From Oscillibacter sp. (lineage in GTDB: Bacteria; Bacillota; Clostridia; Oscillospirales; Oscillospiraceae), in assembly GCA_022797935.1 (NCBI GenBank), contig JAAWLO010000009.1:1-52095 (forward strand): a stretch of DNA of 52,095 bases, given 5' to 3'. Shown in pieces: positions 33,139-51,999 of this stretch. The notes below the pieces were generated by a model. The model was not told the DNA's origin. It made no database searches and was given only the letters and a program-made list of their open reading frames with translations. How positions within the stretch are numbered: the first letter of the stretch is position 1; the number at the start of each line of letters is the position of its first letter. Both the position numbers and the translations under genes were made by a program.

Positions 33139-33235
33139 GACCCTGCGCGGAAGCGTTCTCCAACAGGGAAAAATTTCGCGCCTTCCGCCGGTTCCGGCGG
33201 TCAAATAGGGCCTGTTATCGAAAAAGGAAAAGCCG

Positions 33236-33314: not shown

Positions 33315-33343
33315 TTGAAAAAAAGCTGCTTCTGTGGTATAAT
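33315..33343 (+). promoter_or_regulatory. Promoter of the tubulin/vWA/GTPase operon
   Basis: -35 TTGAAA (33315-33320), 17 bp, extended -10 TGG-TATAAT (33338-33343). It lies after the leu terminator and gives a 5' untranslated region of about 90 nt. No other convincing promoter was seen in the following 18.5 kb. Confidence 0.8.
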
Positions 33344-33440
33344 AGTGTAAATGCGTATATGGTTAAAAGCAGGGACGGCAGGACGGCAAGTCCGATTGCC
33401 GTTTATTCCATTTCACGGAAGAAGGGCAGGGACCGGCAAG

Positions 33441-35510
33441 ATGAAAAGAAGTCGTTTGTTTCGGTGCATCCTTGTGCAGGCGCTGGCGTGGACTTTGATG
33501 CTGGCCTTCGTTGGGGCCGCCGCACCGGAACCGCTGGAAGAGAACCGCTTTAATGTGGCAGTGGTCGTGGACGCCAGCGGCTCCATGAAGAGTACGGACC
33601 CGGAAAAATACCGCTTCCGGGCAATTACCCAGTTTGTGAATCTGCTTGCGGAGCGGGGAAACTGGCTGGGCAGCGTGATTTTCCACACGGATGTGGCCGG
33701 GGGAGAGGGTCTCACGCGGCTGGACAGCCAGACGGACAAGAAAAACGCGGTTGCCGCAATGGAGGCGGTCCCTGCGGATGGAGACTGGACCAACATTGGC
33801 GCGGGCCTGGAGCGGGCGGTCTCCATGCTGAAAAGCGAGGGGGACGCCAGCCTGCCTTCCGTCATCCTCCTGCTCAGCGACGGCAACACGGATATGGCCA
33901 CGCCGGAGGAGAGAAAGGCCTCTTTGGACCGGAAAGCCGGGGCCATCCAGGCTGCCCGGGAGAGCCGGATTCCCATTTACAGTGTCTGCCTCAACGCGAA
34001 CCGTACGGCGGATGTGGCGGAGATGCGGCAGATTTCCGAGGCGACGGGGGGCAGCTTCCAGGAGGTGACCGCCGCCCAGGATCTGCAGGATACCTTCAAC
34101 GCCTTCTATGAGCTGATTTACGGAGCCACCACCTTCCCGCTGGCGGACGACGTTTTCCCCGCCTCCGGGCGTCTGGAGATTCCCTTTGACGTTCCGGGCC
34201 TGGGTGTGGAGGAGGTCAACATCATTGTTTACGGCAGTGCTTCCAAGCTGTTTCTCAACCGGCCGGATGGGTCGCTGAGTGATGTTGTGCCCCAGGTCTA
34301 TCAGGACTTCTCCATGATGAAGCTGACGGAGATTATCCCCGGCTCCTGGACGCTGGTGACCGAGGGAACCCCGGGAGACAGCATCAAGATCAATCTGGTT
34401 TACAACACCAATTTGGGTGTGCAGCTCTCTGCGGAGCCGGACCGGCAGATACTGAACCCGGCGGACGCGGTGACCTTCACGGCCCGGCTGACCGAGGGCG
34501 GCGCGGCCGGAGGCCAGGACTGCACCGGGTATTCCGCGGAGCTTCTGGTAATGGATGCTTATGGGGAAGTGCTGGAGAGCCTTCCCATGGAGGCGGCGGG
34601 GGACAGCTTCGTTCTGACCCGCAGCTTTGGCGAGGGCGCTTACTATTACAAGGCCGCCGTCTCCGGCAATCACATTGCCAGGGAGTCGGCGCGCCTGGGC
34701 CCGCTGTCCTTCTCGGAGGAGGCCGCCACCGGCCAGGAACTGAACAATACGCCGCCGGTACCCGTCAAGGAGGTGGTGGAGGCCACTGTAAAGGTCTGGC
34801 CCATCAAGGGCGGCAGCTATACCCTGGATTTGAACACCTTGGCCTCGGACGGACAGGACGAAACCCTGGAGTACCGGATTCTCTCCAGCTCCTTCCTGGA
34901 GGGAGAGGACTACACGGTGGACGGAGACGGCGTGCTCCATATGGATCATTTCAGCCTCAGCAAGGGCGCGTTTACCATCCGGGCCACGGACTCGGGAGGC
35001 CTCTACTGCGACATCGAGGTGATTGTTCGGGCTTTGAACATCGGAAAGATGACTCTGCTTGGGATGCTGCTGCTGGCCCTGCTGGGGGCGGCGGTTCTGG
35101 GCGTGCTGCTTTACCTGGCGCTGACAAAGCCCTTCCGGGGAGATATTACCGTTCAGTCCTACGCGCCGCCGGGAGCCGTCAAGAGTGCGAAGCGGAGTCC
35201 CCGGCGGGGGCGCTGCAAGCTGTCGCTGTTTGGTCTGGACAATGTGGGGCTGGATTACCGGAGGTGTTATTTCCAGGCCAGCGGCAAGAACTACATTGAT
35301 CTGTGCACCAACCTGCCGGTAATTTACAACGGCCAGGAGACCAAGAAAGTGCGGATTGCCAGCGGTATGCGCATTACGGTGACCGCCCGGAGAGGGGAGG
35401 CCCGCAATCTCCAGATTTATTTCGAAAGCCGTATGAGAACCGGCTATCGGGGCGCGGCGAGGGGAAAATCCTCCAGACCGCCCCGGAGGAACCAGCCGCT
35501 CCGGCGTTGA
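33441..35510 (+). CDS. Exported, membrane-anchored von Willebrand factor A domain protein
   Basis: 689 residues. The N-terminus is a signal sequence (1-28, ending GAAAPEP). The vWA domain follows at about 37-235, with complete MIDAS DASGSM (44-49), the central TNIGAG segment and LLLSDGNTD. The extracytoplasmic beta-rich region (about 240-530) resembles Ig-like/cadherin-like repeats (QDETLEYRIL...FTIRATDSGG). One membrane helix lies at about 538-562, then a basic cytosolic domain of about 125 residues (RSPRRGRCKLSLFG...) that could contact cytosolic partners. The ATG at 33441 is chosen for the signal peptide and AGGGA; an in-frame ATG at 33351 sits at the transcription start and lacks an RBS. 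First gene of the eleven-gene operon. Confidence 0.85.
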   Translation: MKRSRLFRCILVQALAWTLMLAFVGAAAPEPLEENRFNVAVVVDASGSMKSTDPEKYRFRAITQFVNLLAERGNWLGSVIFHTDVAGGEGLTRLDSQTDKKNAVAAMEAVPADGDWTNIGAGLERAVSMLKSEGDASLPSVILLLSDGNTDMATPEERKASLDRKAGAIQAARESRIPIYSVCLNANRTADVAEMRQISEATGGSFQEVTAAQDLQDTFNAFYELIYGATTFPLADDVFPASGRLEIPFDVPGLGVEEVNIIVYGSASKLFLNRPDGSLSDVVPQVYQDFSMMKLTEIIPGSWTLVTEGTPGDSIKINLVYNTNLGVQLSAEPDRQILNPADAVTFTARLTEGGAAGGQDCTGYSAELLVMDAYGEVLESLPMEAAGDSFVLTRSFGEGAYYYKAAVSGNHIARESARLGPLSFSEEAATGQELNNTPPVPVKEVVEATVKVWPIKGGSYTLDLNTLASDGQDETLEYRILSSSFLEGEDYTVDGDGVLHMDHFSLSKGAFTIRATDSGGLYCDIEVIVRALNIGKMTLLGMLLLALLGAAVLGVLLYLALTKPFRGDITVQSYAPPGAVKSAKRSPRRGRCKLSLFGLDNVGLDYRRCYFQASGKNYIDLCTNLPVIYNGQETKKVRIASGMRITVTARRGEARNLQIYFESRMRTGYRGAARGKSSRPPRRNQPLRR

Positions 35511-35544
35511 AATCTGAAATCCATACTTTGAGGAGGAACGAGAT

Positions 35545-38500
35545 ATGGCGGTTTATTCCAAGCTGCTTCTGAGTGCTGGCGGCGGCATTGTGTCCACCAT
35601 GCAGCAGGCGGAGCAGTCCAAGAACACGGCGACTCTGCTCATTGGCTTGGGCGGAACAGGCATTGACTGTCTGCGCACCATCAAGACCCAGGTGTACTCC
35701 CGGCTGCGGCCCGATGATGTGGAGGCTATTGTGCCCAAGTATGAGCACATTCGCTTCCTGGGAGTGGACACGGCGGAGCGTACCCAGGGGGACCCGGATG
35801 AGGATGACTGCCAGAAGGCCGGCGCGCAGATGGCCCTGAACGACACGGAGTTTTTCTCGATTGCCAATCCCCATGTGAAACGGGCCTTCAGCAACACCAA
35901 GGCTTTGGAGATGCGGGAAGAGCTGTCCTGGCTGCGCTGGGAGGACATACCGGCCCCAGACCTGGGCAAGGCCGGTGCCGGCGGCATCCGTCAGGTGGGG
36001 CGCTACATGATGATGGACAAATCCAAGTCCTTCATGAGCCGGGTGGAACAGGAGCTGAATGCCGCCAAGGCAGGCCTGCTGGACCCCACGGTGTACGTGC
36101 ATATTTTCTCCGGCCTCAGCGGCGGAACCGGAGCGGGCTGCTTCCTGGATGTGTGCTACATGGTGCGGCACATTGCCAACCGCCTGGGCGGCGTGACGGT
36201 TTTCGGCTATTTCTACCTTCCGGACGTCAACCTCTCGGTCATCCCCCTGTCCAACACGAAGACCCGGGCCTACATTCCGAAAAACGGCTACGCGGCCATG
36301 CAGGAGCTGGATTACTGCATGCAGCTGCAATACAACGGCGGCAGTTTTGTCCAGACCTATCAGGACCACACCACCGTGGCCTGGAAGGAGCCGCCGGTGG
36401 ACATGTGCCATCTGATCTGCGCCACCGACGCCTCCAACAACGTCATTGAAAACGCGTATGACTATGCCATGAACGTCACGACGGAGTACGTCATGGACTT
36501 CCTGACCCATTCCAATACCAGGTTTGGCCTGGAAGAGCAGCTGGCCAACTTCCGGGCCATGGTCCGGGCGGCGGACGACATGAAGGTCATTGGCTCCTGT
36601 TTGGCCTACTGCGTGATCGGCGCGTCCTGTGCCTGTATTCCCCTGCGGGAGATCAATACCTACCTGGCATCCATGCTCTTCGAAAAATTCTCCCGCGTTG
36701 GAACCGCCGTGCCCACGAAGGAGGATGTGGAGAATCTGGCCGTCACCTCCCTGGCCCGGGGGGTTCAGAGCGTGTCCGATATTTATAACGCGCTGTATCA
36801 GGAGCTGCGGGAGGGCGTTGACAGCAGTTTCAGCGCCTATATTGACGACTGGAAATACGTCCGGGACTACGGCAACCACGAGCTGGTGAGCAGCTATACC
36901 AAGCAGAAGGCCGAAAAAGTCAATGTGATGGAGCGAAACAGCCAGAGCATGGTGTCTCTGGAAAACCAGCAGTCCCTGATCAACCGGGTGCGGAGTCAGC
37001 TGGCCGCCGTGATTCAGGACTGCGAACGGGGCCCCGTCTTTGCCTACGGCCTGATTTCCGCCGCCAAGAGCCACAATCTGCTGAATATCATAGATGGCCT
37101 TCTGGCGGAAAACACCTCCCGCTGGAATCAGGAGGCCGCGCAGAAGCAGCTGCGTTACGACGACTACGAAAGAGCCCGGGCGGATTTCGAAAACCGGCGG
37201 AAACAGAATCTGCTGGACAGCGATAAGAAGCGTTTTGCCGTCTATGAGGATACGCTGCTGTTCACCCAGCAGCACGAGCTGGAGATGGAGACCTACCAGC
37301 GGCTGGACTTTGTGTTCAAGAGCCTGCGCAAGCAGCTGGAGGATGTCACCGCCTCCTATTACATCAAGCTCAGCCGGGTGATGGAGACCCTGATTCAGAC
37401 CTTCCGGGAGAACCGGGAGGCCCTGGCCAGCGAGAAGGTTATGCAGGCAAAGGGCTCGTTTGCCATCCCTATGATGACCATTGAAGAGATGAAAAAGCCC
37501 CTGGACGAGGAGATTGCGAAGATCGACGCGGCCCAGCGGCTGAGCGAGTTCATGCGCCTGTTCCTGGATAAGGAGGAGGCCTGGCTGGCGGAGGACGAGG
37601 GCAAAATCGCGCGGCTGGTCAACAGCTACTTTGTGGAAAACGTCTTCCAGGATTTTGCCAACCGGACCATCACCGCCTTCCTGTCGGATAAATACCACGC
37701 CAATTCCGGCGAACACGCGGGCAAGGGCGTGGAATGGCTGACGAACAAAATCTACAGCGACTGGATGAAGATGCTGACAGACAGGGCCAGCCCGCTGTTC
37801 TATTTCAACAACGGCGTGTGGCGGGAGGATCAGACCGCGAAACTGGCCTTCCTCTCCGTGCCCACCTCTTCCGCGCCCATTCTGGCCGCTGCCGACAAGA
37901 TGTACGAGGCAGACAATCTCTGGGAGAAAAAGGAAAGCGCCCTGACGGACCGGATTTTTGTCATGTGCAGCGCCTGCGCCCTGCCTCTGAGCGCCTACAG
38001 CAACTGCGCGGAGTACGAGGAGATGTGCTTCAGCACCAATGACCCCGGCAAGCATTACTACGAGGGCAAGCCGGTTCCCGGCATGGTCTTTGACGATTGG
38101 CGGAACCTCTCCTCCCTGACGCCGCAGAGCCTGCTGCATCTGGACCGTGCGCCCTACCGGATGCGGGAGCTCATCCAGGAGGCCCAGGAGCTCTATGAGG
38201 AGGCCAGCCGCTTTGGGGTGTTTGACGGGGAAAACCGTATCTGCGCCCCGGACGAGGCGGGCGTCAAAGCGCTGGACGCGCTGCTGAAACAGGCGGAGGA
38301 CCGGACCGCGCAAGCCGGTAAAGCCGCGGACCTGCCGGAGCTCCAGAACCTGCTGGAGCAGCTGCAGGGAGCCCGGAAGGTTCCCATGCGGGCCACAAAG
38401 AACAGCATGCCCAACGACGGCTACGCCGACAAGAAGGAGACCCGGCTCAGCGTGCAGAAGGACCACTTTGTGGCAGCGCCACCCTATCACAGTCTGGTGC

Positions 38501-39009
38501 GGGAGATTCTCCGGCAGCTCCAGACCCAGGACGCCAGAGCGGCGGAGGCCATCCAGAGGCTGGAAGAGAAAATTGCCCGGATTGGTGAGGGCGGCCGGGC
38601 GCTGGCGGACTATTGCGACGCCCTGTTTACCGGCATCATCCACCTGGAGGGCCGGATGGTGGTGTACCGGAAGAACCAGTTCGGCGCGGTGACGGAAACG
38701 GTTCTGTCGAAGCGGGGAGAGGAGTTCCCCTTTAACGCGATTCCCGTCTACCAGGGCTTCCTGAGTTACCAGACTCTGCTGGCCGGCGAGGACCGGGAGA
38801 CCATCCGCCGCTGTGTGGACGAGCGCTACAACACGAATTCGCCGGAAATCAAGGCATCCGGCGAGGCGCTGAAGACCGAGCTGGCGGACAACAAGGTCCA
38901 GGCCTGGAGTATGAATGCGGAGGCCTTCTCGGAGAAGGCGGAGATTATGGAGTTCGTCATCAGACTGAAGCAGCGGTTCAGCAGCTTCTGCATGGAAAAC
39001 GGAATCTGA
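35545..39009 (+). CDS. Tubulin-like GTPase-domain protein (Tubulin_2/FtsZ-like superfamily)
   Basis: 1154 residues. The N-terminal Rossmann part opens with LLIGLGGTGIDCLRTIK (31-47), and the tubulin/FtsZ G-loop signature appears as GLSGGTGAGCF (190-200). FLGVDTAE (71-78) is at the position of the ribose/phosphate contacts. From about 440 on it is mostly helical, with coiled-coil stretches (about 530-660) unlike FtsZ, so it is a member of the large bacterial tubulin-like family rather than a division protein. It should bind GTP and may polymerise. The ATG follows TTGAGGAGGAACGA, the best RBS of the operon, 34 bp after the vWA gene. Function is unproven. Confidence 0.85.
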   Translation: MAVYSKLLLSAGGGIVSTMQQAEQSKNTATLLIGLGGTGIDCLRTIKTQVYSRLRPDDVEAIVPKYEHIRFLGVDTAERTQGDPDEDDCQKAGAQMALNDTEFFSIANPHVKRAFSNTKALEMREELSWLRWEDIPAPDLGKAGAGGIRQVGRYMMMDKSKSFMSRVEQELNAAKAGLLDPTVYVHIFSGLSGGTGAGCFLDVCYMVRHIANRLGGVTVFGYFYLPDVNLSVIPLSNTKTRAYIPKNGYAAMQELDYCMQLQYNGGSFVQTYQDHTTVAWKEPPVDMCHLICATDASNNVIENAYDYAMNVTTEYVMDFLTHSNTRFGLEEQLANFRAMVRAADDMKVIGSCLAYCVIGASCACIPLREINTYLASMLFEKFSRVGTAVPTKEDVENLAVTSLARGVQSVSDIYNALYQELREGVDSSFSAYIDDWKYVRDYGNHELVSSYTKQKAEKVNVMERNSQSMVSLENQQSLINRVRSQLAAVIQDCERGPVFAYGLISAAKSHNLLNIIDGLLAENTSRWNQEAAQKQLRYDDYERARADFENRRKQNLLDSDKKRFAVYEDTLLFTQQHELEMETYQRLDFVFKSLRKQLEDVTASYYIKLSRVMETLIQTFRENREALASEKVMQAKGSFAIPMMTIEEMKKPLDEEIAKIDAAQRLSEFMRLFLDKEEAWLAEDEGKIARLVNSYFVENVFQDFANRTITAFLSDKYHANSGEHAGKGVEWLTNKIYSDWMKMLTDRASPLFYFNNGVWREDQTAKLAFLSVPTSSAPILAAADKMYEADNLWEKKESALTDRIFVMCSACALPLSAYSNCAEYEEMCFSTNDPGKHYYEGKPVPGMVFDDWRNLSSLTPQSLLHLDRAPYRMRELIQEAQELYEEASRFGVFDGENRICAPDEAGVKALDALLKQAEDRTAQAGKAADLPELQNLLEQLQGARKVPMRATKNSMPNDGYADKKETRLSVQKDHFVAAPPYHSLVREILRQLQTQDARAAEAIQRLEEKIARIGEGGRALADYCDALFTGIIHLEGRMVVYRKNQFGAVTETVLSKRGEEFPFNAIPVYQGFLSYQTLLAGEDRETIRRCVDERYNTNSPEIKASGEALKTELADNKVQAWSMNAEAFSEKAEIMEFVIRLKQRFSSFCMENGI

Positions 39010-39043
39010 GGCGGGCGAATCTGCGGCGGAAAGACAGGGGGCG

Positions 39044-39070
39044 GGGGAGCCGTGGGAAACACGGTTCCCC
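39044..39070 (+). other. Intercistronic hairpin after the tubulin-like gene
   Basis: GGGGAGCCGTG pairs with CACGGTTCCCC (11 bp, one G-U, loop GGAAA). No T-run follows (TGTGCCTTT), so it is more likely an mRNA-stabilising, processing or partial-attenuation element in the 125-bp gap, the largest in the operon. Confidence 0.55.
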
Positions 39071-39134
39071 TGTGCCTTTCAAAGGCGCCGCGCGTCTTGC
39101 CTCCGCGTATTTCAAAGGACTGCGAGGTTCATAT

Positions 39135-41006
39135 ATGCTTACGATCCAAAGTCTTATTCAGCATGTGGAAAACCGTCTGCGTCAAATTGACCGGGACCAG
39201 AGCGATACCACAGGCGGAGAACCCCAGTATCCGCAGCTGGTGGTCTATCTGGGAGACGGTGCGGACCAGGCGCACCCGCAGCTGTGCGAAAGCCTGCTGT
39301 CCATCTGGCCGCAGTACGAAAAGGAGCTGAAGTTCCTGCGGGCGGAGGCGGCGGAGGAAGGGCTCTCTTTGGCAGAGCTGTTCCCCGATGGCGGAGAAGC
39401 CGTGGAGCAGACAGAGGACGGCGTGCGGGAATTGGCGTCGGCGCTCTTTGGCACCCGGATGCACTTCCGGGACCGGACGAAGCTGCTGGTATATTACATT
39501 CTGGATACCTCCAGTTTTGTAGGACCGGAGGATTTCCTGGCCTGGATGCCCCGCATCCGTAAGCTCAAGGATTTGCTGTGCGCCAGCCCTGGCGACGTGC
39601 TGGATGTGCTCTTCCTTCTGCTGAACGAAAATCTGGTCCGCCGGAAGACAGCGGGACAGATTCGAAACTGTCTGAGCGGCTTCTGTGATGGAAACGAGGT
39701 CCGCCGGACGGTGGACAATGTCATGCTGCTGAGCAACCGCAGAAGTGACAACGCCATTCTGGAGGACTGGGAGATGTGCTATAAAATCATCTCCGCCAGC
39801 ATCCTCCTGTCCAACAACGCGGATACGCAGGTGGCCAAAGCTTTTTTCAGCAATGCGGTGACGGCGGCCAGTTATGCCCGGGAGGAGAAGGCCCTGCCGC
39901 AGATTGGGCAGGTGGTGGTCAAAAGCCTCTTGGGGGAACTGACCCTGCCGGCCCTGGAGGGCAATCCTCTGGAGGATCCCCGTCTGCCGGAGAAGCTGGG
40001 CCTGACCCAGCAGGGGACCATTGGTATGCTGGACCAGTATGCGGAGAACAGCCTCTTTGATCTCCTGCCTACGGAGGACCAGCTGGAGTTTTTCCCCCGG
40101 CGGGATGACCGCGCCTGCGCCATGAGCCAGTTCACGGCCAGAGAGTTTGACGAGTACACAATGGGCGCCTGGGAGCAGTGCCTCATCCGGCTGGCCGAAA
40201 GCGTGGGAGAGAGGCTGGCTCTGAATGCCGACATCCGCGCGGAGTGGCGGAACCGCTTCCGGGAGGGCCTGACCCGGCAGTTCAGCAACGAAGAGATTTT
40301 GTACCTGAATGAGCATCTGGAGGACGTGCGGACTCTGCTGTCGAATCCCCGGGTGCCGCCCCAGGACGCCCCTGTGCTGGCGGCGGCGCGGGAGCAGCTG
40401 AAATACCGGCTCTCCAGCGACCGGGAGCTGGCGGGGATTTTCCTCTCCGCCCTTCAGGAACAGGGGTGGGCCGCCCAGGATTTCGCGGACCAGTGGAATG
40501 GCCTGCTGAAGTCCGTGCGCAGCGTCCACACGGTGCGGGACGGCAACATTACGGTCTTTTACGAGCGGCAGGTGCGGAGCTTTTATAACCGTCATGGCAC
40601 GGCCATGGAAGCCGCGTTTTCCAAGATGCACGATACCGAGGAATTGGAAAAATTCCTGTATAAAACGCTGGACCAGATCCTGGACAGCGACGCCATTTTC
40701 TCCGCCCCCTTTGAAAAGGAGCTGGAGAGCCGGCTGAACGAGGAGTCCATGATTGCCGACGCGAAGCAGTACATCCGGGAGAAGCTGACGGGAAAAGACG
40801 TCTGCGTCTACCTCCAGACGGATTTCGATTTGGGTGCGCCCATCCTTTCCGCCATTCTGCTGAAGGGCGGCAGTCCGCTGCACAACAGCCTGCGGATGAA
40901 TCTGGCGCCCACTACGTACTACTACAACACCGGCCGGGGCAGCGCGGCGGAGGCACTGGTAATCTACGAGGTCTCCCAGCAAAATCTGGTCAACGGGGAG
41001 GCGTAA
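39135..41006 (+). CDS. Unrecognised helical protein of the tubulin/GTPase system
   Basis: 623 residues, no signal peptide or membrane helix, mostly alpha-helical. The first ~80 residues include a possible small alpha/beta motif (QLVVYLGDGADQAHPQL); the rest alternates amphipathic helices with LLxxLL-like segments; the end (about 540-615) looks beta-containing (KDVCVYLQTDFDLGAPI). I recognise no family. The start at 39135 has GCGAGG upstream; a 21-codon longer version is possible. It is followed after 3 bp by the next gene, implying a stoichiometric partner. A cytosolic scaffold or adaptor for the tubulin-like protein is a guess from context only. Confidence 0.7.
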   Translation: MLTIQSLIQHVENRLRQIDRDQSDTTGGEPQYPQLVVYLGDGADQAHPQLCESLLSIWPQYEKELKFLRAEAAEEGLSLAELFPDGGEAVEQTEDGVRELASALFGTRMHFRDRTKLLVYYILDTSSFVGPEDFLAWMPRIRKLKDLLCASPGDVLDVLFLLLNENLVRRKTAGQIRNCLSGFCDGNEVRRTVDNVMLLSNRRSDNAILEDWEMCYKIISASILLSNNADTQVAKAFFSNAVTAASYAREEKALPQIGQVVVKSLLGELTLPALEGNPLEDPRLPEKLGLTQQGTIGMLDQYAENSLFDLLPTEDQLEFFPRRDDRACAMSQFTAREFDEYTMGAWEQCLIRLAESVGERLALNADIRAEWRNRFREGLTRQFSNEEILYLNEHLEDVRTLLSNPRVPPQDAPVLAAAREQLKYRLSSDRELAGIFLSALQEQGWAAQDFADQWNGLLKSVRSVHTVRDGNITVFYERQVRSFYNRHGTAMEAAFSKMHDTEELEKFLYKTLDQILDSDAIFSAPFEKELESRLNEESMIADAKQYIREKLTGKDVCVYLQTDFDLGAPILSAILLKGGSPLHNSLRMNLAPTTYYYNTGRGSAAEALVIYEVSQQNLVNGEA

Positions 41007-41009
41007 TCT

Positions 41010-41666
41010 ATGCAATATCAATACTGTCCCCACAATCCCGCGCGCTACGCCACGAATCTGCTTCGGGAGCGGGGAAGTAGCCGCCTGTATTGGGAAAATG
41101 CCGACGGGCAGGATGTGCTGCTGGTGCAGACGCCCTTTGGCGTTCCGGCAGCGGAGCGGATGGAGGCCCTCTGCCAGGCCATGGGGAAGACGCTGATTCA
41201 GCCGGGGCGTTATACGGAGGTGCTTCCGGGCGTTTGGGTCCGCTTTGTCTCCGCCATGGACAAGGTGCAGATGAACGGCTGTCCCATCAACACGGAGGCC
41301 AGCACCTACACCGTCTTCAGCTGTCTGACGGAGGGGGAGGTCTGTTCGATTTTTGCCCCCCAGCCCTGTCAGGCCATGATTTCCGCCGATTGCAGCATTC
41401 CCATGCGCATTCGTGTGGAGGTGACGGAGCAATTCCGGCGGCGGCGCCAGGGGCTGTTTGGCCATGTGATGGAGCCCACGGGATTTTATACGCTCTCCTT
41501 TCCCCGGGAGTTGGCGGGAACCTACCAGGAGGGCGGCCTGTTCTACCGGGCGGGAGGCCTGGAAATTCCGGTAACCCGGCAGATGCTGGAGCAGGGCGTG
41601 GTGTATGTAAAAACGGACATACGGCCGGAACTTGTCTCCAGGAACAAGGGACTGGAGCTGATTTGA
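41010..41666 (+). CDS. Unrecognised small protein of the tubulin/GTPase system
   Basis: 218 residues, soluble, no signal. Predominantly short hydrophobic strands suggest a beta-rich fold. Six cysteines are scattered (C6, then GCPINTE, SCLTEGEVC, PCQAM, DCSIP) without a clear zinc-binding pattern. It starts 3 bp after the preceding stop, with GGGGAGG as RBS, so the two are probably translated together. No family recognised. Confidence 0.7.
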   Translation: MQYQYCPHNPARYATNLLRERGSSRLYWENADGQDVLLVQTPFGVPAAERMEALCQAMGKTLIQPGRYTEVLPGVWVRFVSAMDKVQMNGCPINTEASTYTVFSCLTEGEVCSIFAPQPCQAMISADCSIPMRIRVEVTEQFRRRRQGLFGHVMEPTGFYTLSFPRELAGTYQEGGLFYRAGGLEIPVTRQMLEQGVVYVKTDIRPELVSRNKGLELI

Positions 41667-41717
41667 CGCGCCCCGCTGCCTGAGCTTGGGGATTTTGACG
41701 AGAAGGAGCGATTGAAG

Positions 41718-43433: not shown

Positions 43434-43454
43434 GGACCGGATACGGAGGACGTC

Positions 43455-45893
43455 ATGACAGAAACGATTATGCAGTGCTGCTACACCAACGCGGTGAAAG
43501 AGGGCGGCGGAACGGTTGCCTCCGGCTGGCAGGCGGTAGCGGTGTCGGACGGTCTTCCGTCTGATGCCTACGCCGGCTGCGTAAACCTGCAAAGCGCCCA
43601 CTCCCTGCTGCAGGAGGACCTGGGGGCGCTTCGCCTGCTGGAGGTTGCCGGGGACGGCGCGTATGTCTATGTCTGCCGGACGCAGTTTGGGCTGACAGAC
43701 CGCCTGGGCCGTCCGAATCTGTTCTCCCATGCCTATATCTTTTCCTGGCGAAGGGAAGAGGTCCTGGAGGACCCCAACCTGTTTCTGACGCTGGAGGAGA
43801 GCAACTTTGCCAGGGACGAGGCCTCCGCCGCCGTCCGGACGGCGCTGGTACGGCGGGAACCCTTTACGCTGGCGGGGGCCCTGGAGCGGGCCGGCATGAC
43901 GGAGGATACCTACCGGGTATTGCTTCAGTGCGTCTATGCCCAGTTCACGCAGCGCCAGGAGGGCAAACCCCTCTTTGTGCAGTACGACGGTACGGAAGAA
44001 CAGATGATGGCCATTCTGTACTGCGTGTATAGGGGAATGCCTTACTGCGTGCGGCGGAACCTCTCGGCGGCGTCGGCGGCTTCCGGCGGGGGCCGGCGGC
44101 GGGACTTGGTGTTTTCCGTGCAGGCCCTTGGGGAGGAGCGCTTTTTGCTTCCCCAGACCGGGGAGAACAACCTCCTGACGCCCCGCATGGCGCGGCGGAT
44201 TGCCCGCTGCGGGTTTGTGGACTATGCCGCCGGGCGCGGCGGGGAGACCGCAGATTACTTCCGGAGGTTGGAAGAGCTGGCTCTGGAGCTTGGAGACGCC
44301 TCGGATGAACTGACCCTGAAAATTGCGCACCAGATGCTGGAAGCCCCGCCAATTCCGGAACTGGAGGAGGGGGATCTCTACAGCCGTCTCAGTGATGCCC
44401 TGCGGGTCCGGGACTGCGGCAGCGGGCGGATGGAGGACTATATCCGGGAAATGCTGGAAGAGGTCTGCCGCCGGGGGCTGGTGCTGACGGAGGAGAGCGA
44501 ACGGAATTTGGCCCGCTGGCTGGCGGGGCCGGTGCAGGAACGGCTGGCGGATGCCGGGGAGAAGTACAACCTCTGCCGTCTGCGGGAGCTGCCGCCGGAA
44601 GACGCGGCGCGGCGGCTGAACAGCCTGTCCCGGCCTGTGTTTGACCGGTATGGCCGGACATTGCGGGAGAGCTTCGCGGGCCTGGAGATTCTGGATGTCT
44701 ATTACGCTGTCTACGGTCTGGAGAGGCAGCCCCTCACTTGGGCGGGCCTGGAGGCCTTCTGGCTGGAGTCCCGCCGGTCCGGCGGCGGAAGGAAGACGAA
44801 GGACGCCGTGGACGCGGCTGCCTGGAGGCTTTACGACGCGGAACTGGAGCTGCCGGACCGGGCCCAGGCGGCTTATGACGCGCTGATGCGCCTGATGGGC
44901 TGTCTGTTGAGTCCGGAGCGGCTTTCGGGCTGCGGCTTGACGGCGAAGGAACGCTATTGGGAGAAGCAGTCTCTGGAGACCTTTTCCCGGGCCCGGGGAG
45001 AGGAATACCGGGCTATGGCCGATGGCTCGGGGCGAAGCGGACGGTTTATAGCCTTCTGCACCATGCTGGACGCCTATTCCGCCGGCGGAGACGGGACCTT
45101 GTTCCGGGCCTTCCGCCGCTTTGTGGAAGAGAATGCCCAGGTGTTTGCCCAGCCTCAGCAGATTCGTCCTTTCCGCAAACGGCTGGAGGAGGAATTGCTG
45201 GCTATTTCCCCCGGCGCGGAAACGCTGTTCCCCTGGCTGGATGTGCTGTCTCAGCCGGAGGAAGCGGATTTGGCGGAGACGGTGGAGGCCTTGCGGGAGG
45301 ACGTGGCCCGGCGGAATTTTGACGCACTGGTGGACGTGTACCGGCAGGCTCCCTGGAAGAACGGACGGGCTGTGAGTGAGGCCCTGGCGCGGGAGTGCCA
45401 GGCGGCTGATACGCCGGAGCAGTGGGTGCCCGTGGATGTGTGGCTGGTGATGGGTGCGTCCATCTGGCCGGGGAATGCCTTCCGGATCTTTGATGAAGCG
45501 GAGCGGCAGGCGGTGCTGGCGGACCCAGCGCTGGCGGCGGCAGGAAGCTGCCTTCTGGAGGAGGAGCCTTATACCTCCCAGGCGGAGGCCTATGTCCGGA
45601 GGAAGGGAACGGCGCATAAGGCCGTCCATGGCTGGCTGAACGAAGTCAAGGCCGCCAGACGCCGCCGGCAGGCGGAGGAGCGCCGGAGCCGGAAGGAGTC
45701 GGAGGGCTCGGTCCTGGACTGGGGGCGGAACATTTTCACCCAACTGACCTCCGGAGGAGATCGGCAGGGCCGCCGTGTGGCCGGCAAAGAGGCGAAACAA
45801 GGCCGCCGGATTGCCGGAGAAGACGGGAAGAAGGATGAACCGGCGAAAAACCGTTCCGCCCCGCTCCAGAAAGAGGAAGAGAAGAAGCTCTGA
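43455..45893 (+). CDS. GTPase-associated protein 1-like (GAP1-like) large protein
   Basis: 812 residues, cytosolic. The N-terminal ~270 residues (QCCYTNAVKEGG..., VASGWQAVAVSDGLP, TQFGLTDRLGRPN, LPQTGENN) resemble the N-terminal domain of GTPase-associated protein 1, a partner of P-loop GTPases in NTP-dependent bacterial systems; this match is from memory of the pattern. The middle (about 270-700) is helical. The C-terminal ~70 residues are very rich in Lys, Arg and Glu and probably disordered. It follows the GTPase gene by 21 bp. A shorter paralogue ends the operon. Likely regulates or adapts the GTPase. Confidence 0.65.
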   Translation: MTETIMQCCYTNAVKEGGGTVASGWQAVAVSDGLPSDAYAGCVNLQSAHSLLQEDLGALRLLEVAGDGAYVYVCRTQFGLTDRLGRPNLFSHAYIFSWRREEVLEDPNLFLTLEESNFARDEASAAVRTALVRREPFTLAGALERAGMTEDTYRVLLQCVYAQFTQRQEGKPLFVQYDGTEEQMMAILYCVYRGMPYCVRRNLSAASAASGGGRRRDLVFSVQALGEERFLLPQTGENNLLTPRMARRIARCGFVDYAAGRGGETADYFRRLEELALELGDASDELTLKIAHQMLEAPPIPELEEGDLYSRLSDALRVRDCGSGRMEDYIREMLEEVCRRGLVLTEESERNLARWLAGPVQERLADAGEKYNLCRLRELPPEDAARRLNSLSRPVFDRYGRTLRESFAGLEILDVYYAVYGLERQPLTWAGLEAFWLESRRSGGGRKTKDAVDAAAWRLYDAELELPDRAQAAYDALMRLMGCLLSPERLSGCGLTAKERYWEKQSLETFSRARGEEYRAMADGSGRSGRFIAFCTMLDAYSAGGDGTLFRAFRRFVEENAQVFAQPQQIRPFRKRLEEELLAISPGAETLFPWLDVLSQPEEADLAETVEALREDVARRNFDALVDVYRQAPWKNGRAVSEALARECQAADTPEQWVPVDVWLVMGASIWPGNAFRIFDEAERQAVLADPALAAAGSCLLEEEPYTSQAEAYVRRKGTAHKAVHGWLNEVKAARRRRQAEERRSRKESEGSVLDWGRNIFTQLTSGGDRQGRRVAGKEAKQGRRIAGEDGKKDEPAKNRSAPLQKEEEKKL

Positions 45894-45927
45894 CCGGCGG
45901 AAGCACACAGAGAGGAAGAGGAATGCT

Positions 45928-46947
45928 ATGGGGGCGTGGAAGTATCTCCGCCAACAGGACTTGTACTGCAGCGCCCTGTTCGGCAGCGGAATATACATCT
46001 GGGAGGGGAACCGGACGCGGGACCCCCTGACCGGCAGAGAGGTTCCGCTGCTGGTCAGTCTGGTCACCGGAGAGGCGTTTTTCCTGCGGACCGGAGGAGC
46101 CGGCTGCCGGAAGATGGTCCGAAAGCCGCCAGGGCGGGAGTCGATCCTGTGGCCCAGCGATTGCCTGCGTCTGGAGAAGGAACGGGGAGAGGCACTGTTT
46201 TCGCCTTCGGAGGAAACACTTTTGCCGGAAGACGTCCTGCTCTTTCCCCATGGGACCTATCCCGCCGTGGTCAGCGGGCAGCAGAGACTGGCGCAGATAT
46301 CCGGTCCCAGCTGGAAGAAGCCGGAGGTGCGGCGTTTGGCAGCGGAGCTTCTCCAGGCAGTGGAGAGCGTCAACCGGGGCGGGTATCTTTTCATAGACAT
46401 CCATCCCGCCCGCTTTTATGTGACGGGGGAGGACCGGGTGTGTCTGGATTTTTCGGAGTGGATTGTTCCTCTGACGGGCGGCGGAGACCGGACGCCGGAG
46501 GGGTGTCCGCCCTTGGAGTTTGCGGACCCGGCCCTGGTGCAGGGCCGCATTGCCCGGGCGGACGCCAGGTCCCAGAATTACAGCCTGTGCGCCTTGCTGT
46601 TCTATCTGTTTTTGGGGCGGTATGCCTACGACGGGCGGCTGATGCGGGGGTATCCGGACGACACGCCCCAGCGGCATTATCTGAAGTTCCGGGACTACTG
46701 CCGGATGCCGGTGTTCATCTTTGACCGGGAGGACAGCCGGAACCGCCTGGGAACATTTGGAGAGCAGCAGCAGGCCATCCAACTATGGGAGGAACTGCCG
46801 GAAAACCTGCGGGTGATGTTCAGCAGAACGCTTTGCCAGGGAAACGCGGAGCGGACTCTTCCGGGGTACTATCCGCCTCCGGGGGAATGGCTGGCGCGTT
46901 TCCGGGAACTGGGCTGGCTGGAGGAGAGAGAGGAGGCGCGGGGATGA
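45928..46947 (+). CDS. Degenerate protein-kinase-fold protein (probable pseudokinase)
   Basis: 339 residues. The C-lobe landmarks of Ser/Thr kinases are recognisable: FIDIHPARFYV (155-165) for the catalytic loop, VCLDFSEW (171-178) for DFG, EFADP (197-201) for APE, YSLCALLFYLFLGRYAYDG (218-236) for helix F and after, and a terminal R...PPPGEWLARFREL. However, the catalytic-loop Asn is Arg162, DFG is DFS, and no Gly-rich loop is clear in the N-lobe, so activity may be lost or atypical. The ATG at 45928 follows GAGGAAGAGGA. It overlaps the Sel1 gene by 4 nt. Assigned by motif reading only. Confidence 0.65.
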   Translation: MGAWKYLRQQDLYCSALFGSGIYIWEGNRTRDPLTGREVPLLVSLVTGEAFFLRTGGAGCRKMVRKPPGRESILWPSDCLRLEKERGEALFSPSEETLLPEDVLLFPHGTYPAVVSGQQRLAQISGPSWKKPEVRRLAAELLQAVESVNRGGYLFIDIHPARFYVTGEDRVCLDFSEWIVPLTGGGDRTPEGCPPLEFADPALVQGRIARADARSQNYSLCALLFYLFLGRYAYDGRLMRGYPDDTPQRHYLKFRDYCRMPVFIFDREDSRNRLGTFGEQQQAIQLWEELPENLRVMFSRTLCQGNAERTLPGYYPPPGEWLARFRELGWLEEREEARG

Positions 46948-47963
46948 GCGCAGAGGAAGCACGGGCGGCGAAAGACCGTTGGGCGCTTTTAACGGCTGCC
47001 ATTGCCTCGGCGGCGGAGACCGGCGGAGCGGAGATTTTTCAGGACCCGGTCAGACTGCGGGAGGCCCTGAAGGGAGCCGGGGCAGCGGAAGCCGATTTCT
47101 GCCGGGTGTGTCTGATGACCCAGGCGGCCGGTTTTTGGGAGCTGCTGGGGACGAACCGGCGGACGCCCCAGGCGGACCTGGACCGTTATCTCCAGAATGC
47201 GGTCCGGGAGACGGGCTTTACCCGGGAAATGGTGCTGAATCTGACGGGCTGCATTCTGTCCGCCCTGGGCGGCGCGGTTTTGTGGGGCCAGTCCTCCGGA
47301 GAACAGGCGCCCTGGCCGGTGATGGGGGCGCTGGCGGCGGAGGCCTTTGCGCGGCCGCTGCAGGCGCTCCGGAGTGAAATCCCGGGGGCGTTTCAGAACA
47401 AAGGCCGTCTGGACGTCAACCGGTTGGAACAGCTGGTGAACCTGGGGATTCCCGAGGCGAAGTACTACATGGGCCTGTGTCTGCTGAAAGGCGTTGAACT
47501 GGAGAAGAATGAGGAACGGGGCCTGGCCCTGCTGGAGGAAGCGTCGGAGATGGGCAGTGCCGCGGCGGCGGCTGCTCTGGGGGATTATTATTATGCTCTG
47601 GGGGGCTCGGACCATTGGAGCCGGGCTTTCCGGTACTATACCGGCAATGGCGCGGCGGCACTGAACAAGCAGGGGAAAAACGCCGTTGCCGCCATGCTGA
47701 ACCAAGAGCGGTATAACCGCCGGATCCTGGTTTTGTGCGGGGGCTTGCTGGCGGTGTGTATCGCGACGGTTCTCTGGCCTCCGGCAGCGGCGCTGTACGG
47801 GTCGAAACCGGTCTGGGGATGGCTGGCGGCAGCCGTGCAGGCGGCCCTGCTGGCGCTGGGCGTGGTTTTCCACCGGCGCAGGCCCTATGACGGACTGTAC
47901 GAATTGCCTGTGGCCATGTCTGCCGTGTGGGCGTGCTATATGGCCCTGCGGTTTTTGACGTAG
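46944..47963 (+). CDS. Sel1-repeat membrane protein
   Basis: 339 residues. The N-terminal helical domain (1-145) is unrecognised. Two to three Sel1/TPR-like helical repeats lie at about 170-240 (AKYYMGLCLLKG, GLALLEEASEMGSAAAAAAL, WSRAFRYYTGNG), which usually bind protein partners. Three membrane helices follow, from about 260 to the end. The N-terminal part is probably cytosolic. The start overlaps the kinase-like stop (ATGA) with AGAGGAGG as RBS, so the two products are coupled and may form a membrane-recruited complex. Confidence 0.7.
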   Translation: MSAEEARAAKDRWALLTAAIASAAETGGAEIFQDPVRLREALKGAGAAEADFCRVCLMTQAAGFWELLGTNRRTPQADLDRYLQNAVRETGFTREMVLNLTGCILSALGGAVLWGQSSGEQAPWPVMGALAAEAFARPLQALRSEIPGAFQNKGRLDVNRLEQLVNLGIPEAKYYMGLCLLKGVELEKNEERGLALLEEASEMGSAAAAAALGDYYYALGGSDHWSRAFRYYTGNGAAALNKQGKNAVAAMLNQERYNRRILVLCGGLLAVCIATVLWPPAAALYGSKPVWGWLAAAVQAALLALGVVFHRRRPYDGLYELPVAMSAVWACYMALRFLT

Positions 47964-47977
47964 AAAGGGGGAGCGGC

Positions 47978-49591
47978 ATGAAGGATTATCAGGATGAAGC
48001 CCCGAAGCGGGACGGGAAGCTGTTCCCCAAGAAAAACGGACTGCTTTTTTTCGGCCTGAACCTGCTGCTGATCGGTCCCCAGATATTCCGGAAATTCTCT
48101 CTCTGGGGTGCGGCGGGGGCGGCGGCGCTGCTGCTGGTTCTGCTGGTTCTGACCTTAAAGCGCGCAAACGACTGGGAGCCTGCCAGCCGGGATTTGCCCT
48201 TGTTGGCCGTCTTTGACCTGTGTGTGCTGCTGGTGCTGTCCCATGCGGAGCTGCGGGGGCAGTTCGGGCTGCAGAACGCGGACTTTCTCCTGCGGGGCCT
48301 GCGGAGCTTGGGAAGCTTTTGGCTGATTCCGGCAGGCGCGGCGCTGTGTCTGGCACGGGTGGAGAACCCGCCTCTGCTGCGCCTGTGGGTGAAAGCCCTG
48401 GGACGGACGGCAGTGGGCGCGGGACTGCTCCTGATGCGGTGGAGCAGCGGGTCTCTGCTGGTTTTCTATGGCGAGGGGAAGCGGCTGCTGGTGATGTACC
48501 TGCTGTGCGCCCTGGTGTGGTACCTGCTGTGTACGGTATCCTTCGGTGTGGAACCGGAGGGACTGCAGCGGGATTTCTGGCTGTCCCGGCTGCTGCTGGC
48601 GGTATTTTTGGTTCTCTGTTTGCTGGAACCGGTTGTACTGCGGGAATTTCTGCTGCGTCTGGCGGATTGGGCGCGGGAAGCCGCCGCCGGTGTCTGGTGG
48701 AAGACGGCCCTGACGGCGGCGGTGCTGGCCGGGAGCGCGGCGGCGGTTTATGAATACGACCGGAACCGCATGGGCCCGGACGCGGCGGTGCTGGGGATTC
48801 TGGCCAGCGGCGCGGTGCTGCTGCGGGGACTGACGGAGTGGTATTTCGCCTTCAACGGGGGACTGCTTCTGGTATTTCTGGTGGGAAGCCTGTTCTGTCT
48901 CTTCAACGAGGCGGAAAACCGAAAGACGTTTGGTTTTGCCAATCTGGTTTTCCTGCCGCTTCAGCTGGGCGCTTTGCTGGCGGCGGCGATGCTGCTGAAG
49001 CGGGGCCTGTGGGCCATGGTGCTGCTGCTGTGCGTCTATGGGTGTTTGTTCTTTGTGCTCTCTGGCCGGCGGACCACCTCCAAGCGGTGGCTGTTCTATT
49101 GGCTGACGCTGCTCTCCTGTCCACCGGCAGCGGCGGCGGCGTATCTTTGGCGGATGCGCTTTTTGCCGGAGACCATGAAGGCCCTTGGCGCGGTCTACGC
49201 GGTGCTGGCACTGGGCATGGTGATTCTCCATTGGCCGCATCCAGACCGGCGGAGCGCGCACCCGAATGATAAGCGGGCCCTGTGTGTGCTGATGGCCCTG
49301 TTAAGTCTGGCGGCGTCCGCCCGCTATGGGACAGCCGTGCAGATATCCTTCCAGGAGGCGGATTACACGGCGTCCATCACCTTGACGGCCCGGGGAAAGG
49401 AGAACGCGATTCGTTCCGCCGGGTATGTCTGGAGCGGCGCGCTGGAGGAACCCGGCCCGGCAGTGCGGCGGCTTTCTGCCGGAGAGACGGTTATCCCCAT
49501 TGAGGGAGAGAAGCTGACGGTCCTGGTAACGGACGCCTTTGGAGCGTCGACAGAGGTGACGGATTGGTATCCCGGCTGGATGCGGAAATAG
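47978..49591 (+). CDS. Polytopic membrane protein with C-terminal extracytoplasmic domain
   Basis: 537 residues with about 12 hydrophobic segments of membrane-helix length between residues 20 and 460, separated by short charged loops. A soluble tail of about 75 residues (from TAVQISFQEADYT) is beta-rich and probably outside. No transporter signature is evident. The start ATG follows AAAGGGGG. It lies between the Sel1 membrane protein and the second vWA protein and is presumably the membrane core of the system. Function unknown. Confidence 0.7.
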   Translation: MKDYQDEAPKRDGKLFPKKNGLLFFGLNLLLIGPQIFRKFSLWGAAGAAALLLVLLVLTLKRANDWEPASRDLPLLAVFDLCVLLVLSHAELRGQFGLQNADFLLRGLRSLGSFWLIPAGAALCLARVENPPLLRLWVKALGRTAVGAGLLLMRWSSGSLLVFYGEGKRLLVMYLLCALVWYLLCTVSFGVEPEGLQRDFWLSRLLLAVFLVLCLLEPVVLREFLLRLADWAREAAAGVWWKTALTAAVLAGSAAAVYEYDRNRMGPDAAVLGILASGAVLLRGLTEWYFAFNGGLLLVFLVGSLFCLFNEAENRKTFGFANLVFLPLQLGALLAAAMLLKRGLWAMVLLLCVYGCLFFVLSGRRTTSKRWLFYWLTLLSCPPAAAAAYLWRMRFLPETMKALGAVYAVLALGMVILHWPHPDRRSAHPNDKRALCVLMALLSLAASARYGTAVQISFQEADYTASITLTARGKENAIRSAGYVWSGALEEPGPAVRRLSAGETVIPIEGEKLTVLVTDAFGASTEVTDWYPGWMRK

Positions 49592-49611
49592 AGCGAAAGA
49601 GGTGCGGTAAT

Positions 49612-50835
49612 ATGCGGCGGCAAAAAGTGTTTCATCTGCTCATACTGGTGGTTTCGGCGCTGATGGGCGCGGCGGTGTGGTTTGTGTGCGAGGGGCTTTA
49701 TGATGCCCTGGTGGATTCCCTGGCCAGACCGGTGCTGATGGGCCTTCTGTTTGGTCTGTTGGCTCTGGCGGCGGGCGGTGTTTTTGCCGTCAGTCTCTTG
49801 CGGGGGACCTTTGAGCAGGATGTGGTGACCGGCGGTTCCGCCCTTGCGGCCGGAGGAATTCTGATGGGGCTGGTGTTGCTGGTGGCGGTGTTGGCGGCGC
49901 TGTTTCAGTGGCTGTACAGTCTCCGCCTCTCCGGGGAAGCGGCGAAGCCCACCTCTTACATCTTCCTTTTGGACGATTCCGGCTCTATGTTGGACAACGA
50001 CCCCCATCAGCGCCGGTTCAGCGCCATTGGCCAGGTACTGGAGGGGCAGGAGGAAGAGATTCCCTACATGGTCTATGGTTTTGCGGAGAACGTTTCCCTG
50101 CTGCGGGAGATGGGCCCCCTACAGGCGGGCGAGGACCCGGGCGTACTGACGGGAAACAGTGACGGCGGAACGGCCATGGGAACCGTGCTGGCCCAAGTAT
50201 TGGCGGATTACGAAGCGGGCCTCTGGGACGGCGGCGCGTCGCCGAAAGTGATTCTGCTCTCTGATGGAATCCCCACGGATTTCCAGAGTTTTTCGGATAT
50301 CAGCGAGCTTCTGAAGGAGTATGTTCAACAAGGCGTCAGCATCAGTACCGTGGGTCTGGACGGCGTAGACGGCGAGATGATGGAGCGAATCGCCAGCCGG
50401 ACCGGGGGCGTCTTCGTGGACATTCAGGACGCCGCCCGTCTGGGGGAAGCCATGCTCTCGGCGGCCAGCCGGTATGCGGAAGAGGACCTGGTGACGGCGC
50501 GGTATACCGGCGGCATATTGCCCGGGGTGCTTCGGGTCCTGTTTTTAACGCTGCTGGGCCTGGGAATTGGCCTGGCGGCGGCGGTGGCCTATGGTCAGAC
50601 AGAGTCTCTGAATCTGATTCTGTCCACATCGGCGGCAAAGGCCCTGGCGGGAGCGCTGCTGCTGGAGCTTTGCACGGCCAGGCTGGGGAACCGGGTATTT
50701 TGGTGGCTGCTGTGGGTGCTGGCCGCCGCCACAGTCTGCACGCGGACAGCGTCTCCGATTCCTGTCCGGAGGACGAGACCGGTCCAGCGAAGACGGGGCA
50801 GGAGCCGTTCCAACCGGATGTTGGGGAGATCATAG
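49612..50835 (+). CDS. Multi-pass membrane protein with vWA domain
   Basis: 407 residues. Three N-terminal membrane helices (about 8-27, 41-63, 79-104) are followed by a vWA domain (about 115-290) with MIDAS D121-x-S123-x-S125 (LLDDSGSM), GGTAMG and LLSDGIP, so metal binding is intact. Three further helices (about 303-385) lead to an Arg-rich tail (RRTRPVQRRRGRSRS). With a basic N-terminus and tail inside, the vWA domain is placed outside, as in the first gene of the operon. RBS AAAGAGG. Probably a ligand- or partner-binding subunit. Confidence 0.8.
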   Translation: MRRQKVFHLLILVVSALMGAAVWFVCEGLYDALVDSLARPVLMGLLFGLLALAAGGVFAVSLLRGTFEQDVVTGGSALAAGGILMGLVLLVAVLAALFQWLYSLRLSGEAAKPTSYIFLLDDSGSMLDNDPHQRRFSAIGQVLEGQEEEIPYMVYGFAENVSLLREMGPLQAGEDPGVLTGNSDGGTAMGTVLAQVLADYEAGLWDGGASPKVILLSDGIPTDFQSFSDISELLKEYVQQGVSISTVGLDGVDGEMMERIASRTGGVFVDIQDAARLGEAMLSAASRYAEEDLVTARYTGGILPGVLRVLFLTLLGLGIGLAAAVAYGQTESLNLILSTSAAKALAGALLLELCTARLGNRVFWWLLWVLAAATVCTRTASPIPVRRTRPVQRRRGRSRSNRMLGRS

Positions 50836-50859
50836 AAGCGGAAAAGGAAGGGAAAGGCC

Positions 50860-51999
50860 ATGGAACCGGTATATCAGTGCCGTTACAGCAATGCGTCCCA
50901 GACCGTGGGCAGTCAGGTGACCTCCGGCTGGCAGGTGACCTTTGCCTCGCCGGGAATTCCAAAGGAGGCCTACCAGGTCTGTGTAAAGCTTCAGGCTGCC
51001 AACTCGCCCATCTGCGCCCGGGCGGCAGAGGAGGACGGAACCCCGCTGAATCTCCTGGAGCTGGTGGGAGACGGCAATTACCTGTATGTGCTGCAGACGC
51101 AGTTTGGTCTGACAGACCGCCTGGGCCGTCCCAATATGCAGTCCCATGCCGTGATCTTTCATACCTGGAACAACGAACCCCTGCTGAAAAATCCCAATTA
51201 CTTTCTGGCTCTGCATCCGGTGACCTTCCAGAAAGAGGATGATACGGTGATCTATCAGAGCCGGTCCCTGTCTCTGGAGGAGGCTATGGTTCTGGCGGGA
51301 TTGGACCGGGTGCGCTATGCGGCATTGGTAAAGTGCGTGTTTGCCCAGCTGGAGAGCCGGAAGGCCTCCCGGCCCCTGTATATCCAGTACGACGGCAACC
51401 CGCGGCGCCTCCAGGGGATTCTCCATTGCCTCTGCGCGGGAATGCCCCGCTATCTGGTGCGGAATCTTCGGGTGGCCTCCTGTCCCACGGCCAATGACAG
51501 CGGCAAGGACCTGGTGTTCAGCCGGGCGGCCAAAACACGGGGACGGTTTTTCGTTCCCCAGACCGGGGAGAACAATGTGCTGACCAACCGTCTGGAGCAG
51601 ACCATCCGCCGCTCCGGCTATGTGGATTACGCCGTGGAACAGCTGCCGCTGGAGGAGTTTCCCGCGTTTTTTGAGGCCTTGGAGGATATTGCGTCCAGCA
51701 TGGGAGACGCCTCTTCCGCGTGGCATCCGTTTTCGAAGCTGGCGTTCCAGTTTTGGAAGCGGCAGGACGACGCCGTCTTTTCGGACACGGAACTGGAGAG
51801 TAATTTCAGCGACGCCCTGCGCCTGCCTCCGTCGGGGAACCGGATACTGGAAAACGTGCTGACCCGGATGCTGCGGGAGGCCAACCGGCGGAAGCTGGTC
51901 CTGCCGGCAGAGAGCGAGACCCTGCTGTATGCCTGGCTGGACAGCGCCCGCTCCGATGAGCTAAAGGAGGCCGGACGGCAGTACCGGAAAAACCGCTAG
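50860..51999 (+). CDS. Short GAP1-like paralogue
   Basis: 379 residues, aligning along its whole length with residues 1 to about 380 of the 812-residue protein at 43455. Shared blocks are Y-x-N.....SGWQ, TQFGLTDRLGRPN, YDG...GIL/AIL.C...GMP, PQTGENN and, near the end, MLRE/MLEE..RR.LVL..ES. The match runs to ELKEAGRQY, then the stop, whereas the longer copy continues for another 430 residues. Some stretches are nearly identical at DNA level, including a 20-bp block at 44151/51556. It could be a deliberate short form or a 3' truncated duplicate; the window ends 96 bp later. Confidence 0.65.
   Translation: MEPVYQCRYSNASQTVGSQVTSGWQVTFASPGIPKEAYQVCVKLQAANSPICARAAEEDGTPLNLLELVGDGNYLYVLQTQFGLTDRLGRPNMQSHAVIFHTWNNEPLLKNPNYFLALHPVTFQKEDDTVIYQSRSLSLEEAMVLAGLDRVRYAALVKCVFAQLESRKASRPLYIQYDGNPRRLQGILHCLCAGMPRYLVRNLRVASCPTANDSGKDLVFSRAAKTRGRFFVPQTGENNVLTNRLEQTIRRSGYVDYAVEQLPLEEFPAFFEALEDIASSMGDASSAWHPFSKLAFQFWKRQDDAVFSDTELESNFSDALRLPPSGNRILENVLTRMLREANRRKLVLPAESETLLYAWLDSARSDELKEAGRQYRKNR

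Follow-up and report, generated by a model that had tools for sequence, protein, structure and literature searches.

The window analysed here is a stretch of 52,095 nucleotides from an Oscillibacter sp. (GenBank assembly GCA_022797935.1, contig JAAWLO010000009.1) and makes up the entire contig G000:C29; the draft genome measures 2.69 Mb and is 84% complete. Its right-hand part, between positions 33441 and 51999, carries eleven reading frames on the forward strand without internal stops, which we call g01 to g11. According to our analysis of their sequences, this operon is probably a rarer, one-tubulin version of the tubulin-type GAP1-N2 double-GTPase systems, a type known since it was predicted from genomes in 2020 (Kaur et al., eLife 9:e52696, PMC7159879). 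The genes, whose starts were picked by comparison with relatives, and two upstream signals are listed below with the E-values of their database matches (MIDAS, metal ion-dependent adhesion site; TM, transmembrane).

About 33234 to 33278, forward strand: intrinsic terminator of the upstream leu operon (fold of -29.3 kcal/mol, z -5.1, then T6)
33315 to 33343, forward strand: promoter-like site TTGAAA-17-TATAAT with a TG (11 of 12 positions matching)
33441 to 35510, forward strand: g01, vWA1, with a signal-like N-terminus, a vWA domain with intact MIDAS, a beta-rich ectodomain, one TM segment and a basic tail (PF00092, 5.1e-12)
35545 to 39009, forward strand: g02, tubulin-like protein (Tubulin_2 / FtsZ-like 1) of 1154 residues (PF13809, 1.2e-57)
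39135 to 41006, forward strand: g03, predicted alpha/beta domain, perhaps vWA-like without MIDAS, plus a helical domain (AlphaFold2 model, predicted local distance difference test score [pLDDT] 73, predicted template modelling score 0.51)
41010 to 41666, forward strand: g04, two predicted beta-sandwich (FN3-like) domains (AlphaFold2 pLDDT 87)
41718 to 43433, forward strand: g05, DO-GTPase2 with N- and C-terminal zinc-ribbon-like Cys pairs (PF19993, 5.6e-8, over the cut-off)
43455 to 45893, forward strand: g06, GAP1 protein with weak GAP1-N2 and GAP1-M parts and a polar C-terminal tail (PF20013, 3.6e-4)
45928 to 46947, forward strand: g07, pseudokinase-like protein (its profile matches kinases in the PDB, best Tribbles, 7.7e-5)
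46944 to 47963, forward strand: g08, Sel1-like protein with TM-like segments 96-115, 258-287 and 289-311 (PF08238, 6.5e-5)
47978 to 49591, forward strand: g09, polytopic membrane protein (8 TM-like segments)
49612 to 50835, forward strand: g10, vWA2, with three N-terminal TM-like segments, a vWA domain with intact MIDAS and a TM segment (PF00092, 3.9e-8)
50860 to 51999, forward strand: g11, second, short GAP1-like protein with the N-terminal and middle parts only (42% identical to g06 over query residues 3-375)

A preliminary description of this DNA had reported eleven genes facing one way, with tight gaps and one ATGA overlap, and the frames indeed lie there: from g01 to g11 the gaps measure 34, 125, 3, 51, 21, 34, -4 (the ATGA overlap), 14, 20 and 24 bases, nine of the ten being below 60, with the 125 bases ahead of g03 as the exception. 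The strong terminator claimed for the upstream leu operon, whose nearest gene we take by its look to be leuB, is likewise borne out, none of 200 shuffled sequences giving an equally good fold. The site behind the strong promoter claimed upstream is the best of four in 19 kb; shuffled sequences average 3.8 sites, so the count is at chance level and only the quality and position of the site at 33315 to 33343 speak for it. It is plausible that a single promoter drives all eleven genes. The contig ends at 52095, 96 bases past the stop of g11, and a further gene may lie beyond; having its own stop at 51999, g11 is not a GAP1 protein cut by the contig end.

The Pfam scan covered ten of the eleven products, and the NCBIfam and PADLOC scans were each run without g08. 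The core singled out by the preliminary description, namely a tubulin-like protein, vWA proteins and a P-loop GTPase matching the system of Makarova and Koonin (2010), is upheld by the Pfam matches. In g02, scanned from the internal Met at 35605, the Tubulin_2 match spans residues 11-362, and the GTP loop GGTG.G, which reads SGGTGAG in the window, is invariant in five sequences. A standard FtsZ is encoded elsewhere in the same genome, so g02 is unlikely to be a division protein. In g05, the motifs GITGAGKT, DVAGE (with the Walker B Glu) and SKxD as well as the Cys pairs are invariant in two sequences. The GAP1-N2 family PF20013 is matched, at E up to 1, by six of seven aligned GAP1 proteins (best 2.5e-8), and the last 85 residues of g06 are 46% charged, against 29% for the whole protein.

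Two published predictions provide the frame for these genes, and we refer here to the portions of both papers used for the comparison. In the description by Kaur et al. (PMC7159879), about 52% of the GAP1-N2 neighbourhoods are centred on tubulin, an FNIII protein is a regular member, active kinases form a theme restricted to Actinobacteria and the class is grouped with conflict systems; the form given for Firmicutes comprises two tubulins, a DO-GTPase, two vWA proteins (one of them polytopic, with the vWA domain outside) and a GAP1 protein with a polar tail. Five of eight features of that form are found in the window: the DO-GTPase with zinc ribbons, the downstream GAP1 protein, its polar tail, the tubulin, and two vWA proteins of which one is polytopic. 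Pseudokinase, Sel1 and polytopic membrane proteins go unmentioned in those portions, the short GAP1 protein g11 is an extra here, and the kinase-like g07 is degenerate and stands within the tubulin theme. Makarova and Koonin (PMC2875224) described FtsZl1 together with vWA and P-loop GTPase genes, often with kinases and membrane proteins, and predicted membrane remodelling. The likeness to g02 lies in the FtsZ-like N-terminal domain and in the operon with vWA and GTPase genes; the loop is given there as GGGTG(S/T)G, of which the window holds a variant, no OmpA-like gene was recognised in the window, and GAP1 and FNIII do not figure in the portions of that description used here. As a precedent, then, the 2010 paper fits the core, as the preliminary description had it, but the later one is fuller and remodelling is just one of the predicted roles. 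Our searches of the open-access literature turned up no experimental work on this class.

Gene order is conserved among relatives. The succession of tubulin-like gene, g03, g04, GTPase and GAP1 is kept in 12 genomes from four genera and two families, the genome of the window included (the others are G338, G231, G091, G777, G808, G774, G809, G757, G810, G766, where GAP1 is cut, and G458), with protein identities of 30-49% in the relatives compared directly; scattering in relatives, which the preliminary description had named as the finding that would speak against its proposal, is not what we see. The order g01 to g10 is intact in three genomes, that of the window and G338 and G231, which both come from a second genus of the family, at 26-48% identity, while in G091 g01 lies on a separate contig from g02 to g10. 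Upstream of g01 to g08, G808 carries vWA2 and another tubulin-like gene. In G458, which belongs to another family, g01 is followed by two tubulins, g03 to g08 and a polytopic protein; the succession is that of the window, but the two tubulins recall the form of Kaur et al., and neither a vWA2 match nor g11 was found in the stretch read. Four more pieces cut by contig ends (L036, G752, G808 C352 and G808 C189) fit the core order; G766 and G752 end at contig edges within g06 and g03 and are uninformative on the genes that follow. Together with the variants given below, these comparisons suggest a core of tubulin-like gene, g03, g04, GTPase and GAP1, to which g07, g08, g09 and vWA2, and in one locus vWA1 too, would be add-ons.

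Farther Tubulin_2 loci in G006 and G089 show a vWA gene, a tubulin-like gene and, after unmatched middle genes, a GTPase gene. Profile comparison detected homologues of both g03 and g04 in G458, of g03 alone in G055 and of neither in G006 and G089. The locus of G006 (L017/L018) reads vWA, tubulin, proteins of 621 and 228 residues unlike g03 and g04, GTPase, a 954-residue protein with a TM segment, vWA and a kinase, the last active-looking (Pkinase, 1.1e-32). G055 is rearranged (L029, L024), with tubulin pieces on two contigs, a g03-like gene, a GTPase-like gene and vWA1. We did not count G006, G089 and G055 as members, nor G115, G060, G022, G081, G066 and G052, six of the 11 family genomes with a Tubulin_2 match, whose loci gave few or no matches to the window profiles. 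A g03 match in G211 (9.2e-4) was not upheld by profile comparison, and the weak tubulin match in G753 has no profile match within 20 kb.

The operon is patchily distributed. A g02 relative is present in 10 of 86 genomes of the genus, one of them weak, Tubulin_2 in 11 of 120 sampled genomes of the family, and g03 in 5 of 400 genomes of the family, one at 9e-4, and in 2 of 391 of a class sample (the own genome and G458), the own genome being included in each count. When leuB was searched in 61 genomes of the genus, 49 gave a match, which in at least four covered short pieces only; the stretch after leuB, read in 12 genomes, holds differing reading frames and in none of the 12 a g02 relative. The flanks of the operons in G231, G338 and G091 also differ. 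From this patchy occurrence and the differing flanks it follows that the operon is accessory and has probably moved. Of 14 control genomes, three were matched by Tubulin_2 and one by GAP1-N2; Corynebacterium glutamicum belongs to both sets.

Both vWA proteins retain the MIDAS residues. In g01, D45-S47-S49, T118 and D148 are invariant, as are D122-S124-S126, T188 and D219 in g10 (three sequences each). Hydropathy gives g01 TM-like segments at 6-29 and 527-556, and the NCBIfam and PADLOC scans add vWA-type matches for it. Going by the order of the hydrophobic segments, the vWA domains of g01 and g10 would lie outside the cell. An FHA-like tail considered for g01 is unsupported, the PDB profile search reporting the vWA part only (the tail was not searched separately).

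The claim of a kinase-like protein holds for the fold of g07, whose profile matches kinases, but its catalytic residues are degenerate. Active kinases match nearly as well as Tribbles, from 2e-4, and the NCBIfam and PADLOC scans give weak kinase hints. In five sequences, with motif positions that we assigned from general knowledge of kinases, R55 stands at the aligned Lys and R163 at the aligned Asn, the counterpart of DFG is DFS, DYS or NYS, and the HRD Asp is retained, so that g07 looks catalytically degenerate. Tribbles proteins are pseudokinases; degenerate catalytic residues are common to both, and the resemblance is one of fold, implying neither ancestry nor function. The Sel1 membrane protein of the preliminary description, g08, is Sel1-like, with TM-like segments and a Sel1 match that is under the cut-off (23.8 bits against 30.7). 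The polytopic g09 is 26% identical to its counterparts in G231 and G338 and has a profile match in G091.

The preliminary description also listed two unrecognised proteins. The Pfam, NCBIfam and PADLOC scans gave nothing noteworthy for g03, g04 and g09, and g04 is without a Pfam match, but it may be the FNIII component expected of the systems of Kaur et al.: its model finds tandem FN3 structures as first Foldseek matches (E 2.6e-3, probability 0.91, TM-scores about 0.3), a weak resemblance. For the g03 model, the Foldseek matches of higher probability include chains of TFIIH and Ku80, which are vWA folds, as well as a Gal/GalNAc lectin and C11 proteases, the top match by E-value being LacI (6.3e-3). 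The DxSxS MIDAS motif is absent after the first strand in six sequences, and profile comparison gave no similarity to g01 or g10; the model itself points weakly to a vWA-like domain plus helices. A hidden second tubulin was considered and rejected for g03, there being no profile similarity to g02 and no tubulins among the best fold matches.

Of the two GAP1-like proteins announced by the preliminary description, both stand by similarity, g11 through its identity to g06, but g11 was not seen as a separate gene beside the operon among the relatives' loci read. An order-wide GAP1-N2 search was rejected as a route to more systems: 9 of 394 genomes match, and among the eight inspected (G416 being the exception) six have pilus-like loci, G715 has what by its look we take to be an HSP70-type locus and one is G091. 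In the six genomes (L063:9634-12384, reverse strand; G689, G521, G420, G636, G659), GAP1-N2-matching proteins of about 910-945 residues adjoin pilin-like genes, and G659 has a second, cut copy. Their neighbours, which we name by look, are presumably PilB-, PilC-, PilD-, PilT- and pilin-like; the GTPase profile found no match in the stretches read around them. The G714 protein also matches GAP1-M (8e-4). With a GAP1-like domain in pilus loci, the family may have a wider role.

On sequence grounds, we consider it fairly probable that the operon encodes an accessory system of the tubulin-type GAP1-N2 double-GTPase class. Its products would form a scaffold that is anchored in the membrane and switched by GTP, sensing outside the cell and acting within it under envelope stress or conflict. 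The two membrane proteins with MIDAS vWA domains would present them outside and bind a peptide, wall or foreign ligand, and the binding would be relayed via the polytopic and Sel1-like membrane partners. In the cytosol, the conserved pair of g05 and g06 would form a complex acting as a GTP on/off switch, with FN3-like g04, g03 and pseudokinase g07 as possible non-enzymatic adaptors. Switch and adaptors would control the GTP-dependent assembly of g02, whose GTP loop is conserved, at the membrane, and the assembled scaffold might, in the least certain step, alter or protect the envelope against stress or an invader. Outside-to-inside signalling to a scaffold, which the preliminary description suggested, is a reasonable expectation. 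By analogy, one may imagine an integrin-cytoskeleton-like machine in which outer MIDAS vWA receptors gate the GTPase and GAP1, the pseudokinase and an FN3 adaptor replace enzymes and a single-species tubulin-like filament is nucleated under the membrane; this elaboration is speculative and we hold it to be unlikely.

Several observations weigh against the assignment to a tubulin-type GAP1-N2 system. The genome, 84% complete, has one Tubulin_2 match, while the Firmicutes form of Kaur et al. has two tubulins, and FNIII is represented here only through the weak fold matches of g04; the fold matches of g03 and g04 are weak altogether (TM-scores up to 0.42). The GAP1-N2 match of g06 is below the Pfam cut-off (21 bits against 24), a whole-genome GAP1-N2 search at E 0.001 did not match the own genome, and four of five relatives have a far shorter version of the long polar tail. 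The Firmicutes form also has a vWA protein fused to YtkA, a family that did not come up when three g01 proteins were searched at E 1. For g07, none of the five proteins is matched by a Pfam model. Nor are the membrane and sensor parts obligatory: in G774, G809, G757 and G810, g01 to g06 are followed by other genes in place of g07 to g10, and in G777, where the upstream gene presumably is alaS, g02 to g07 are found without a vWA match in the locus. A secreted-looking protein of about 340-360 residues follows GAP1 in two short operons of the genus, those of G774 (L109:66-1076, reverse strand; this copy is without a Pfam match) and G757.

Three other readings differ from the favoured scaffold-and-sensor system mainly in role, and their likelihoods overlap with it. 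In a strict anti-phage or inter-bacterial conflict system, the scaffold would act by way of the membrane proteins to release an effect that kills or inhibits. The placement of the class among conflict systems in the portions of PMC7159879 considered here points this way, and so do the accessory nature of the operon and its differing genomic places, a type III restriction-modification pair found in G808 some 4 kb upstream (L116:4910-9998, reverse strand; a single case) and a weak PADLOC match of g07 to PD-T4-6 (5.5e-4); but Pfam recognised no effector domain in the ten products scanned, the remaining PADLOC matches, for all products but g08, are at 0.011 or worse and the other flanks look housekeeping by eye (Pfam having been applied to the flank of G808 only), and we regard such a dedicated role as doubtful. 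If instead the operon encoded a membrane-remodelling or vesicle machine, the tubulin-like filament would shape the membrane, positioned by vWA proteins and GTPase and without sensing of invaders. The core of tubulin, vWA and GTPase with membrane proteins agrees with what is predicted in the portions of PMC2875224 at hand, and g01, g08, g09 and g10 are membrane proteins; the patchy spread and the dispensable membrane parts, however, better suit a conditional system than basic cell architecture, which makes this reading improbable. A system resembling the phage shock protein (PSP) response, with GTPase switch and scaffold stabilising a damaged membrane, draws on the presence of DO-GTPase genes in some PSP operons, with a predicted membrane-stress role (PMC11237479, in the portion used), but Pfam recognised no PSP family protein among the ten products scanned, and we give it little weight. 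That these are unrelated genes brought together by chance is barely credible: g11 and the accessory genes do vary among loci, but the order of g02 to g06 is the same in diverged genomes at different places.

If the proposed scaffold-and-sensor system is real, some gut Oscillospiraceae have a compact cytoskeleton-like sensor, and the comparison of loci narrows it to a testable five-gene core, the tubulin-like protein, g03, g04, the GTPase and GAP1, which indicates what to reconstitute first.

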